64,000 bases of DNA from an uncultured Pseudanabaenaceae cyanobacterium (lineage in GTDB: Bacteria > Cyanobacteriota > Cyanobacteriia > Pseudanabaenales > Pseudanabaenaceae), in assembly GCA_937927915.1 (NCBI GenBank), contig CALGKB010000010.1:1-64000 (forward strand), given 5' to 3'. The translations under genes and the position numbers were made by a program. The notes beneath the pieces were generated by a model, which saw only the letters and a program-made list of their open reading frames with translations, made no database searches and was not told where the DNA came from. This document shows, one piece after another, positions 7,618 to 31,745 of the stretch (position 1 is its first letter; the number at the start of each line of letters is the position of its first letter).

Positions 7618-10600
7618 ATGGCTAACCTACCGCATGGAGAGGGTGATTTGGAGTTGCCCATAATAGAAGACCTGCCTTTTGCCACGGAAGTCGATATTGC
7701 CAAGGCAGAGGAGGAATTTATTGCCCAGTACGGCGATCTCCTAGCCTCTGTGGAGGTGGAGGATATAGGTTTAACTGCCCTAATCCAGAGCGATAGTGAG
7801 CAGTCTGTAGAACCAGTCAGCGACCGCCAAAATGAAGAACAAACGATCGCCTATCCCCCGGACTTTTCCCCCGCTGTACTCGCTGCTATTTCTGGCAATG
7901 TAGATTTAGACCTGCCTGCATCCAGTGCTGACCCATCAGAACCAGAACAAGAAACAATCCTGCAATTACAAATAGATGAACCACTCCAGCGGGAGCAGAT
8001 AGATGAGCAAAGGGGAGTAGAAGAACTAGAAACCCTCTTACAGTTGGAGGAAGAATCTGCTCCTAGTGCTGATCTTTCCACTCTAGGAGAAAGTGAAACA
8101 CTGTTGCAGTTAGAAGAATTACCATTCCTTTCCCAGGCAGACAGCCTTATGGAATTGGACAACGGCGAAGCATCACTGCCAGAGATTACGGAACTGCCGA
8201 CATTATTGCAAGCAGAGGAAGAGTCAGTTGCACAGATAGGGCAGGAAGAAGAAACAGACCACCCCCCAGAGACAGAGGGAACGATCGAGGAATTAGAAAC
8301 TCTCTTGCAATTGGAAGAAGAAACCCAAGACCAAACAGAGGAAAAGACAGAGGAATTGGTAACTTCTCTGCAGCCAGATGAAGGGAGAGCAGCGGAGGTG
8401 GCAGAACCAGAGGCAAGGACTGAAGAATTGGAAACCTTCTTACAGCTAGAAGAAGAAACGCGCATCCAACAAGACAATGACTCAGTGGCAGTAATCGAAG
8501 AGTTGGAAACTCTTTTGCAGTTGCAGGAAGAAACTAGCATTCAGACAGAAGAACACCAAGAGATGGAGGATTGGGCTGCTCCCCTGCAGTCAGGTGAACA
8601 AGAGGCAGCGAGGATGGCAGAGGAGGAACCACCAGTCCTAGGGATAGAGCAAGAAGATGCTGACATAGAACCATTGCTGACGGCAGACGTTCAGGCAGCA
8701 CCATCAGAAACGATGGCAGAACTGGAAACCCTTTTACAATCAGAAGGTACTGCAGAAGAGACACCGGCAAGTATTGAGGAGTTAGAAAATCTGCTGCAAG
8801 AAGAAGAAGGCGAACCTGTAGTTGAGTCTGCTATACCGGAGGAGGAATTCCTACCCCCAGACATAGTGCAAATTTTAGATGATACGGAGGCGAGTTTGAA
8901 TGCTGTAGAAGAGAAAACGATCGATGAGTTAGAAAATCTAATCCAGGCAGAAGAAGCAGAAGACTGGCTAGCACAGGAAGAGGAATTACCAGAAGTGGGG
9001 GAGGAGGAAGCAGTGATGTCAAACGCAGAACAGGAGGATAATGTGATCAACTACGAGGAAGATGAAGAGTCGGCAATTAGTGAAATTCTCACCGCTTTTC
9101 AGACGGAAGGCAAGTCTTACCCAGAGGAGATGGAGAATGAGGATGAGGAGTATGCAGAAGAAGAACCAGAATATCAGTACCAGTATGATGAGGAATACCA
9201 GACAGAGGAGGTAGAGTGGGAAGCAGCCCTAGAAGAAAACCACGACTATCAGGAAGAGGCAGTTGCCGTTGATGATGACTATGCAGAATGGCAGTCAGGA
9301 ATTACTAACAATGAGTTTCCCATCGATGAAGAGGATGAGGACTCCATAATTGACGAAATTATCACTACCTTTCAAATGAGCAATGAGAATACCGCCACTA
9401 AGTTTGTGGAAGACGAAGAAGCGGATGCTCTGTTGACGAAGTGGCAACACGACGAAGAGGATTTAGGTGGGGTAGGAGAGTTAATTGATTGGGAAAAAGC
9501 AGCTTCGGGTAAGATGTCTGCCCTAGATATACCGCTGCCTGATTTTGAAAGCTTTACGGCTACTAATGACCCCATGGAAACCGCTATTAAGGCAAAAAAA
9601 GTACTGGAACAGAGTAAGAGTAGTATAAAGGAAAAGTTAGATTTTGACAAAGAAGAACAGGACACCTCTTTACCGCCTTTACCACCTGTGAAAAAATTGC
9701 GGACAGAGATCAAGCCGCCCCCCAGTATCAGTATGCCCACATTTACGGATGAGTTTGAAGAGGAAAGGTATCAACCTCGCTCTGGCAAAATCCAGCCCCT
9801 GCCCAAGCGCAAAGACGGCGTTGTTTTAGAGGATGATTCTGATATTTCCTATCGGTCGCAAATCAAGGGACGCTACAAAGACCCCTTTGCCGATGTGGAG
9901 GAAGATGACTGGGATGAATTGCTAGATGATATTCCCCCTGTGTCAGACGAAATTTTTGGGGTGTCGGAACAGACGGCTGCCCGCTATCAGGATGCCAGTT
10001 TACCGCCCCAGTTTGATACTCGTAGTTTTGCTGCTGGTGATACGGAACCAGCTAATTTGCCTGTAAAAAATCCCTCCCACTCTGCCCAGGCAGTCTCCCA
10101 GACAGCGCCTACTTTCCCTGAACGTCTCTCTCCCTCGGTACGTCTGCAACAGTTCTGGGAAAATAACAGTACAACGATTATAGAAATTGCCAAACGGCTG
10201 GGTGTTGTGCTTGTCCCCCTGGTGTCTCTCTGGTTGGTCTTCTCCCATCCCAGGGTCAACAAAACTATCACTGTCACAACGCTACGCACGGGGATTTGGA
10301 AGGATGCCAGAGGTAGAAACCTCCGATCGGTGGTGTTGAAGAACGCCAACCTAGAAAATGCCAACCTCGCTCAGTCTGATCTCTCTGGTTCTGACTTGGG
10401 GGGAGTTAATTTGCGCAAGGCTAACCTGCAGGGAGCAAAGCTAGAAAAAACTAATCTCAGGGGGGCACGGCTTAATCTGGCTGACCTCAATGGCGCTAAC
10501 CTTAAGGGTGCTAACTTAGAAAATGCAGAACTGAGTAAGACAAACTTTAGGGGCGCTAATCTCGCGGGGGCGAAGCTGGGTGGACGCAAGTGGGCGCAGG

Positions 10601-10668
10601 GCAATCCCCCCCTCAGTGATAAAACTACTACCTGTCCCAATGGCAAGCCTGGTCCCTGCCGTTTCTAA
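7618..10668 (+). CDS. Acidic repeat protein with one membrane segment and C-terminal pentapeptide repeats
   Basis: I recognise no named family for this 1016-residue protein. About the first 620 residues are extremely rich in Glu and Asp. They carry roughly ten degenerate copies of an E-E-L-E-T-L-L-Q-x-E-E motif at irregular intervals, with weaker relatives such as ISEILTAFQ and IIDEIITTFQ. A less acidic, proline-rich region follows. Near residues 858-878 a single hydrophobic stretch (LGVVLVPLVSLWLVF) looks like a membrane anchor. Residues about 890-995 are A(N/D)Lxx pentapeptide repeats forming a right-handed beta-helix. A short tail contains two cysteines. There is no signal peptide. The topology suggests a long acidic cytoplasmic arm that binds partners through repeated short helical motifs. 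The gene stands alone with its own upstream region. Confidence 0.75.
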   Translation: MANLPHGEGDLELPIIEDLPFATEVDIAKAEEEFIAQYGDLLASVEVEDIGLTALIQSDSEQSVEPVSDRQNEEQTIAYPPDFSPAVLAAISGNVDLDLPASSADPSEPEQETILQLQIDEPLQREQIDEQRGVEELETLLQLEEESAPSADLSTLGESETLLQLEELPFLSQADSLMELDNGEASLPEITELPTLLQAEEESVAQIGQEEETDHPPETEGTIEELETLLQLEEETQDQTEEKTEELVTSLQPDEGRAAEVAEPEARTEELETFLQLEEETRIQQDNDSVAVIEELETLLQLQEETSIQTEEHQEMEDWAAPLQSGEQEAARMAEEEPPVLGIEQEDADIEPLLTADVQAAPSETMAELETLLQSEGTAEETPASIEELENLLQEEEGEPVVESAIPEEEFLPPDIVQILDDTEASLNAVEEKTIDELENLIQAEEAEDWLAQEEELPEVGEEEAVMSNAEQEDNVINYEEDEESAISEILTAFQTEGKSYPEEMENEDEEYAEEEPEYQYQYDEEYQTEEVEWEAALEENHDYQEEAVAVDDDYAEWQSGITNNEFPIDEEDEDSIIDEIITTFQMSNENTATKFVEDEEADALLTKWQHDEEDLGGVGELIDWEKAASGKMSALDIPLPDFESFTATNDPMETAIKAKKVLEQSKSSIKEKLDFDKEEQDTSLPPLPPVKKLRTEIKPPPSISMPTFTDEFEEERYQPRSGKIQPLPKRKDGVVLEDDSDISYRSQIKGRYKDPFADVEEDDWDELLDDIPPVSDEIFGVSEQTAARYQDASLPPQFDTRSFAAGDTEPANLPVKNPSHSAQAVSQTAPTFPERLSPSVRLQQFWENNSTTIIEIAKRLGVVLVPLVSLWLVFSHPRVNKTITVTTLRTGIWKDARGRNLRSVVLKNANLENANLAQSDLSGSDLGGVNLRKANLQGAKLEKTNLRGARLNLADLNGANLKGANLENAELSKTNFRGANLAGAKLGGRKWAQGNPPLSDKTTTCPNGKPGPCRF

Positions 10669-10759
10669 TAACTATCACCGATCGCTCCCATTGGCTTTTC
10701 TAATAGGTGGCTGGTCGACTTTGGGGATAAAATAGAGGGAGATGTTACGGGGGAATGCT

Positions 10760-11071
10760 ATGAGCGAAGCAGAAACTACAGGGATTGTTAAGGTAGAGGA
10801 AAAGGAGAAGGAAGGTGCCCTTAAACCCTCCAACAAATTGCCTGGCAATCGCCCGATCGGGGCAAACGGTCTGCAAATAGCGAATGTCTATCATATTGCC
10901 GGCTCCGATCGTCCTGTGGCATCGGGGAATCTGCAAATAGTAGAGTATATTGGCGGCAATCGTCCTGTGCTGGCGACGAGCTTAAAAATTAGTGAAATTT
11001 ACTACGGCAATCGCCCCGTTGCCCCCAACACCTCGGAGGACTCCTATACCCTCATGGGGTTCATTGACTAG
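10760..11071 (+). CDS. Small NRP[IV]-repeat protein, function unknown
   Basis: This 103-residue protein has a charged N-terminus followed by four tandem units of about 20 residues. Each begins with N/D-R-P-[IV] and continues x4-L-[QK]-I-x-x-[VI]-Y, for example NRPIGANGLQIANVYHI, DRPVASGNLQIVEYIG and NRPVLATSLKISEIYY. Short proteins with such repeats occur in cyanobacteria, but I know of no assigned function. The ATG at 10760 is preceded by GGGGGAA at good spacing and is preferred over an upstream in-frame start at 10742. The gene end overlaps the convergent comEC gene by four bases. It sits about 90 bases behind the acidic repeat protein and could share its transcript. Confidence 0.7.
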   Translation: MSEAETTGIVKVEEKEKEGALKPSNKLPGNRPIGANGLQIANVYHIAGSDRPVASGNLQIVEYIGGNRPVLATSLKISEIYYGNRPVAPNTSEDSYTLMGFID

Positions 11072-30014: not shown

Positions 30015-31745
30015 TCAGCCCTGCAGAGCGTCTAAGAGGAGATGGAAGAGAGGGTGTTCTAGGAGGGGTTGTAACTCAGGGCAGTCCCCGTTTTCCACCG
30101 CTGTTGCTAGGGTCTTGCGGAGGGAGGGATGCCGTTGTACCAGCTCCACTGCCTTTGCGATCGCCGCCATCCGATCGGCTATAGGCTGTTCACTATAGAC
30201 GGCAAGCACCTCATCCAAAATGTGTTTGACCTCAGTGATAGCGATCGTTATGTCGTCCTCAGGTTGGAGGGTAGTCACCTGTTCAATCACTGTGGCTTGG
30301 GGAGTCGCCTCCACCATACTAGCAACAGTACGGCGTTGTTTGACAAATTCATTGGTGCGGTTGAGGGCACGGTTGACAGAATTGAGGCGATTGATCCCCA
30401 AAAATAGGGTATTAATGTACTCACTGTAGGGTAGGGGTTCACGGGAAAATCCCACCACCTCAATCCAATCTTGGTTAGCCCTTGCCTGGTACTCCTCCTC
30501 TAAAGCCTTCCGCAGTAGTTCGTAGGAGAGCATAAATTCATCGTGTAGCCGCGACCGATCGGTTTCTGCCGCTACCGTCATTTTCACTACGACCGTGCCG
30601 TTGCCTTTGTTTTTAATACTGGTAATAGACATCTTAGCTTCGGGGTTGTAGTCCCGCATATCCTGAAAGGTCTGGGAAAATGCCTCCCAGTCTACCCCCT
30701 GCTGAAACACCAGGGACACATAGCTCATCGTCTTTTGGAACATGAGCACAAATTCCTCTGGCTTGAACTTGTCATTGGGGGGATAGCGGTCTTCGTACAG
30801 ACGGGTGAGCAAACCCTGGGGGCGCTCTACCTTAGATTTTAAGTAAATATACTCACATTCCACATCCTTAAGGCGGGTATCGCTATCAATGTCCCAGTTT
30901 TCTAGGCAGACGCCTGTAAATTGGGTGCCCGTGAAGTTGGTTCCCATTGCCTGGGTACCACAGATGTAAGCCTTCATCAGGTCACAGTAGCTGAGGTCGG
31001 CGTAGCGCAGGTCGGCATCGAGGAAATTTGCCCCCGTCATATCCGTATAACTGAGGTCAGCAAAGCGCAGGTCGGCATGGCTAAAATCCACACTGCCCAG
31101 GTAAGCGCGACTCAACCTTGCCCGCACCAGGGTAGCGCTGGAGAGATTGCTCTTAAATAAATTTGCCCGCATTAAATTGGCACGGGTGAGGTCCGCCGCC
31201 CGCAGGATAGCTTCATTGAGGTCAGCGCCGTAGAGGTTACTGCGGATGAGATTGCAAATACTGAGGTCAGCCTGGGTGAGATTGGCGCTCCCTAGGTCGG
31301 CATTGTAGAGGTTAGACCCAAACAGATTGGCATTGGCGAGATTAGCCTTGGGAAAGTGGGCATTGCGGAGGTGTGCTTCGCTTAAATCTGCTTCCGAGAG
31401 GTCAGCCTCGCTTAGATCTGCCCCAAACATATAGGCACCCCGCAGATAGGCACCATGGAGGGAAGCGCCAAACAAATTAGTGCCACTGAGGTCCGCTTCC
31501 CCCAAAAAACAGCCGTTTAGGTTAGCATGGCTGAGATTGGCAGTACTTAAATTGGCGCTGCGGAGATTGGCACCACTTAGGTCTGCCCCTGACAGGTCGA
31601 CGTCAATCAAATCAATGTAACTTAAATCCCTGTCACTGAGGTCGGCGCTTCTGAGGTCAACAGGGGTATCGGGATGCTCCTGCCGCCAGCGATTCCATTC
31701 ATCTAGTCCTTGTTCCAGTAGCTGCAGGTACTCGGCTTTTGCCAT
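30015..31745 (-). CDS. Pentapeptide-repeat protein with conserved C-terminal domain
   Basis: In this 576-residue cytoplasmic protein a short N-terminal region ([20 protein letters not shown]) precedes about 48 tandem A(D/N)Lxx pentapeptides (residues about 30-275), which should form a right-handed quadrilateral beta-helix. The C-terminal 270 residues are a non-repetitive domain ([60 protein letters not shown]) with an all-helical end that finishes [17 protein letters not shown] know no function for it. There is no signal peptide and no membrane helix. The stop codon abuts the convergent tRNA-Asp. Confidence 0.82.

Follow-up and report, generated by a model that had tools for sequence, protein, structure and literature searches.

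The window analysed here, a stretch of 64,000 nucleotides from an uncultured Pseudanabaenaceae cyanobacterium, carries on its forward strand an open reading frame (7618-10668) that encodes a protein of 1016 residues. The anatomy that an earlier note had read from the letters is borne out, with a long acidic arm that carries an array of short motifs being followed by a single membrane anchor and a pentapeptide beta-helix; the protein ends in a tail with a pair of cysteines (Table 1). Library families match only residues ~895-995 and are always pentapeptide repeats, and besides the pentapeptide models there is no Pfam match at E <= 1. A named family covering the full length, which the earlier note had said would tell against its reading, was looked for in the family libraries, in Pfam and among solved chains, and none was found. 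Literature on Pseudanabaena and on cyanobacterial pentapeptide, disordered and membrane-anchored proteins yielded no description of the protein, and that on bacterial multivalent motif scaffolds nothing relevant to it; it is also unnamed in the passages concerned with SepJ, including its Pseudanabaena PCC 7367 homologue (PMC12096826), and in those on the thylakoid lumen proteome (PMC7880944).

Table 1. Features of the gene and its protein (positions are those of the window)
Feature	Residues	Position	Strand	Basis or remark
Whole gene: acidic arm, transmembrane segment, pentapeptide rod, Cys tail	1-1016	7618..10668	+	ORF and homologues
Conserved N-terminal arm stretch, DLELPIIEDLPFATEVDIAKAEEEF...	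~10-45	7645..7752	+	nearly identical in G002
Motif 1, EELETLLQ	135-142	8020..8043	+	motif scan
Motif 2, TELPTLLQ	191-198	8188..8211	+	motif scan
Motif 3, EELETLLQ	224-231	8287..8310	+	motif scan
Motif 4, EELVTSLQ	245-252	8350..8373	+	motif scan
Motif 5, EELETFLQ	269-276	8422..8445	+	motif scan
Motif 6, EELETLLQ	294-301	8497..8520	+	motif scan
Motif 7, AELETLLQ	367-374	8716..8739	+	motif scan
Motif 8, EELENLLQ	387-394	8776..8799	+	motif scan
Motif 9, DELENLIQ	436-443	8923..8946	+	motif scan
Motif 10, SEILTAFQ, outside variable array	488-495	9079..9102	+	kept in all three species of the genus
Motif 11, DEIITTFQ, outside variable array	579-586	9352..9375	+	kept in all three species of the genus
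Membrane-proximal arm	481-840	9058..10137	+	best-conserved arm part in the genus, 71% identical to G002 when motifs are excluded
Pro tract LPPLPP	685-690	9670..9687	+	such a tract in 34/35 family proteins
DWxxLL motif, DDWDELLDDIPPVSDEI	763-779	9904..9954	+	family-wide, 35/35
Transmembrane segment	~857-875	10186..10242	+	hydropathy; helix 842-876 in model
Pentapeptide beta-helix	~901-989	10318..10584	+	PF00805 match, structure model, fold searches
Cys-pair tail, TTCPNGKPGPCRF region		10630..10665	+	C1007 and C1015, sole cysteines of the protein

The fold of the C-terminal rod is a known one. The match to PF00805 is strong (E 7.5e-23, 80.2 bits against a cut-off of 20.2, with 910-949 as the best stretch) and the tandem A(D/N)LXX repeats number eight or more. 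An AlphaFold model of residues 842-1016, built on an alignment with 14 relatives, has a mean pLDDT of 88 and consists of a helix at 842-876, a second helix at 878-891, a right-handed quadrilateral beta-helix from ~896 and a confident tail that contains both cysteines; a full-length model from the single sequence (pLDDT 40.7), in which even the rod fails, was uninformative and has not been used. With Foldseek and VIA-align the best PDB matches of the rod are pentapeptide repeat proteins (PRPs), including synthetic solenoids, the lumenal 2g0y (Z 17.5), 3n90 (Z 16.7) and many others; likeness to lumenal PRPs reflects a shared fold and not a location. The two tail cysteines are kept in all of 20 proteins compared, 14 of which are otherwise free of cysteine over the translated frame, and probably form a disulfide.

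It is the arm that is unusual. Residues 1-840 contain 28.6% D+E and only 4.8% K+R, giving a net charge of -200, and their Uversky index is negative (-0.23), suggesting that the arm is disordered; a PDB search with it matched no solved chain. The 48 ORFs of at least 150 residues in the window, this one included, average 11.1% D+E (sd 3.3), with the arm protein the highest, and the acidity is therefore not that of an acidic proteome.

Relatives were found with the C-terminal alignment as query; the full-length protein, whose patterns lie mostly in the variable arm, recovered none in the genome contigs, and no relatives were found in viral contigs. Among 39 genomes searched, the organism's own included, two of the same genus (G002 and G001) match along much of the length and the others match C-terminally, with some of these matches falling within long frames; G001 does not show the conserved N-terminal stretch, as a contig edge falls there. 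A model of the transmembrane junction (388 genomes, E <= 1e-5) matches 36 of 38 genomes of the same genus or family, again including its own, once in each, and none of 350 other cyanobacterial genomes, a count that should be read with the proviso that profile searches score only a subset of the first-look candidates and may have missed a distant copy. The two genomes without a match are G007, which is 77% complete, and G310, where 23 codons of the tail lie at the start of a contig. A model of the tail matches 37 of the 38; its best matches outside the family are small rods in G027 and G098, the complete frame being one (L106) with a CPDGERGPC tail and, by eye, a lipoprotein-like signal (lipobox). 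Most of its weak matches fall in frames of 509-575 residues, two of which were read (L107 and L108) and are PRP kinases without the Cys pair, presumably SpkB-like; Pfam finds no N-terminal protein kinase domain in the arm protein. The gene thus encodes a real membrane protein specific to the Pseudanabaenaceae.

The layout is near-universal in the family, with a long acidic arm, a Pro tract, a single DWxxLL motif, a transmembrane segment, a pentapeptide rod and a T-x-CPNGxxGPC tail, yet the arms themselves differ, and proteins not cut by a contig edge range from 598 to 1694 residues with 18-28% D+E in the arm. Counts were made on 35 proteins, three of them (L044, L053, L056) cut by a contig edge, leaving out eight duplicates (L058, L060, L061, L064, L067-L070), the non-family L059 and a broken copy in G012. 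Each of the 35 has W-x-x-[LI]-[LN] in acidic or polar surroundings, 78-124 residues ahead of the hydrophobic peak and mostly as DWSGLLDS or DWSGLLES, and each ends in a C-x7-C tail; a Pro-Leu tract lies upstream of DWxxLL in 34, in some as a loose match only. What is conserved across genera is hence an acidic arm as such, the Pro tract and one DWxxLL motif. The G012 copy (L110, G012:C218) is a family gene that appears to be split into different frames in a draft genome. Outside the family, a protein of Oscillatoria sp. SIO1A7 (L059:6435-8819) has a related transmembrane-rod-CPNGKNGPC module that matches a family member in G004 (E 4.6e-5), but it carries an N-terminal Cys-rich ribbon (by eye) and a coiled coil, and no acidic arm.

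The loci compared, in which few neighbours were typed, contain no partner gene common across genera. Within the genus G002 shares only the upstream genes with the locus in the window, and Pseudanabaena loci have a common aminotransferase upstream (Pfam on L042). Other features of these loci were noted in passing. At 10742-11071 (+) of the window lies a gene for a 109-residue protein that contains GNRPI/GSDRPV repeats and matches nothing in Pfam; related frames occur in 16 of 20 genomes searched and do not adjoin the arm gene in G002 or G001. Further along, at 30912-31658 (-), is a 576-residue open frame with several pentapeptide stretches. Directly downstream of the arm gene in G002 is a DUF4135 plus LanC-like protein (L057:9942-13133), a layout that we take to be that of a lanthipeptide synthetase.

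The motif array was the most distinctive claim of the earlier note. Within residues 1-850, eleven sites fit the core [LI]x[TN]x[LIF]Q of an E-[LI]-x-[TN]-x-[LIF]-Q type (2000 shuffles gave a mean of 0.29 and a maximum of 4) and seven fit the strict E[LI]E[TN][LF][LI]Q (shuffle mean 0.00, maximum 1); a degenerate DNA pattern for the motif has six matches in the 2.4-Mb genome, all within the arm gene, and none when read backwards. The motif had been called amphipathic, and as an ideal helix it is moderately so, but its hydrophobic moment ranks only at the 50th-91st percentile when the motif's own residues are shuffled. It was also asked whether the number of motifs varies between strains, and it does: the three species of the genus differ in the count and positions of the motif but all retain it, a looser single pattern finding 12 sites in the window's protein, 11 in that of G002 and 6 in the truncated protein of G001. 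Conservation beyond the genus did not hold, which by a condition that the earlier note had itself set counts in part against its reading: the other genera scanned within the family have no strict copy (zero in all 40 additional entries, some of which repeat a genome and one of which, L059, is not of the family). When eleven proteins were searched for over-represented patterns, two from this genus gave p values of 7e-17 and 5e-15; outside it the best was 8e-11, and shuffles reached 9.8e-10 in one case. Two broader ideas were considered and rejected: a specific array in every genus is unsupported, being strong only in this one, and a general hydrophobic-xx-LL motif uniting the arms has counts that are not above shuffles elsewhere. 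G016, G004 and a few others have short tandem or Pro-rich repeats near the shuffle level, those of the Pseudanabaena protein L043 (G016) being of the type DxxWSxxLEAEI. The EELETLLQ motif is thus an elaboration at the level of one genus, and the signal at the level of the family is the DWxxLL site with its conserved chassis.

We tentatively favour a reading in which the protein is a single-pass membrane scaffold of the Pseudanabaenaceae, with a client-binding cytoplasmic arm and an exoplasmic, disulfide-capped rod, and this may quite possibly be correct. The rod, closed by its Cys-pair tail, would sit outside the cytoplasm, in the periplasm or the thylakoid lumen, and fix the protein there, and the disordered arm would reach into the cytoplasm and hold clients near the membrane via the juxtamembrane DWxxLL site and the LPPLPP tract before it. 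In the genus of the window alone, some eleven ELxTLLQ copies may multiply weak binding of one partner. Docking of many copies of one partner, as the earlier note had proposed, agrees with a motif that is kept while its number and position vary, but the array is confined to one genus; as a multivalent docking device it is plausible, unproven and genus-specific. The suggestion that the membrane is the thylakoid found no backing, as nothing favours it over the plasma membrane.

The strongest competitor sees in the arm a charge brush or an entropic spacer, selected for length, acidity and disorder, with local repeat turnover having spread EELETLLQ in a single genus. It is mainly composition that is kept across genera, as the range of lengths and of D+E contents illustrates, and neither the array nor an enrichment of hydrophobic-xx-LL is seen elsewhere, as such a spacer would have it. 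Against this stands the single DWxxLL motif in every family protein counted, together with the membrane-proximal arm, which at 237 of 336 identical residues between the window's protein (G000) and that of G002 exceeds the array zone in conservation. The motif copies also keep their protein sequence despite scrambled synonymous codons (mean pS 0.89 and pN 0.26; strict copies 0.98 and 0.07), the low pN being due in part to the copies having been picked by motif; because they differ so widely at synonymous sites they are not fresh duplications and must be old or independently gained. Between G000 and G002, identical positions number 71 of 132 in the motif 12-mers and 147 of 372 in the remainder of residues 1-480, with gaps taken as differences; in the array zone alone and without gaps the figures are 36 of 59 for the motif 8-mers and 96 of 200 for the linkers. 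The copies therefore change position although the motif persists, in agreement with a multivalent array and also with repeat turnover. A pure spacer seems to us rather unlikely, whilst deserving serious weight.

A bolder version of the scaffold would have the ELxTLLQ array, tunable and rapidly rewired, gather a single cytosolic machine at the membrane site that the rod fixes, which would make the protein a clade-defining and previously undescribed membrane-tethered counterpart of CsoS2. The N-terminal domain of CsoS2 binds Rubisco with low affinity through four helical repeats (PMC11365436), and the likeness lies in a long disordered chain whose short repeated motifs bind one partner multivalently, where for the arm protein such docking is conjectural. 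CsoS2 is however soluble, has other motifs and lacks both a membrane anchor and a pentapeptide rod; Pfam finds none of its sequence domains in the arm protein and no other sequence relation to it, and the arm protein is not a member of its family. We regard this version as unlikely.

By architecture the nearest described pentapeptide proteins are HglK and YjbI, each of which differs in a defining feature, and they raise the idea that the rod acts on the septal wall or outer membrane with the arm merely regulating or placing it. Pseudanabaena, the best-sampled genus here, is filamentous, in keeping with a septal role. HglK of the filamentous Anabaena/Nostoc PCC 7120 is a septal membrane protein whose C-terminal domain is of the pentapeptide type, but it has four predicted transmembrane segments before that domain, where the arm protein has a single hydrophobic segment preceded by 856 residues, and the passages on it describe no acidic motif arm (PMC8145042). 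Secreted PRPs of the YjbI type, with Cys pairs flanking the helix, and the lumenal Rfr32 likewise share an extracytoplasmic rod with a Cys pair at its end (PMC12864828, PMC8145042); as described there, they have a cleavable signal peptide in place of a transmembrane anchor and no arm, and YjbI has two Cys pairs, whereas the arm protein has no N-terminal secretion signal and cysteines at one end only. No septal or envelope gene was recognised beside the arm gene among the few neighbours typed, and a septal or envelope role of this kind appears quite improbable.

The scaffold that we favour presupposes a type II topology with a cytoplasmic arm and an exoplasmic rod, and this orientation is likely. 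In the 35 proteins the membrane segment is mostly flanked by one K+R on the arm side and three on the rod side, which by the positive-inside rule weakly favours the opposite orientation; the rule is, however, weak for long domains. Tails of the CPNGxxGPC type occur on exported rods, namely on pentapeptide proteins with signal peptides (by eye) from Lysobacter (L063, L075) and Terriglobia (L073), the CPDGERGPC tail sits on L106 with its lipoprotein-like signal, the corresponding tails of the two kinases lack cysteine (TTMPNGKAG in L107, TIRPNGKRG in L108) and the family keeps its Cys pair, which taken together would place the rod outside the cytoplasm. The signal-peptide proteins (L063:6882-8387, L075:6705-8273, L073:7857-8243) carry CxGC ahead of the helix and have CPNGKPGPC as their tail, with a second similar tail in mid-protein in the two from Lysobacter. 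A cytoplasmic rod with the acidic arm exported, either into the periplasm or onto the cell surface, an arrangement to which the charge bias would point, is very improbable given that tails of this type sit on exported rods in unrelated proteins and that an N-terminal arm of ~380-1430 residues without a signal peptide is unlikely to be exported.

Finally, pentapeptide proteins are commonest in cyanobacteria, yet very few of them have a known job (PMC8145042). A membrane protein found in almost all species of a family, with a candidate docking motif in 35 of 35 members and a countable array in one genus, offers a direct handle for naming its client, for which DDNTDWSGLLDSGDLSDSI-type peptides in Pseudanabaena and tandem EELETLLQLEEE peptides in the window's organism would serve. 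If multivalent docking is true, this would be a bacterial membrane scaffold in which the client motif has been amplified in one genus while the chassis has stayed.
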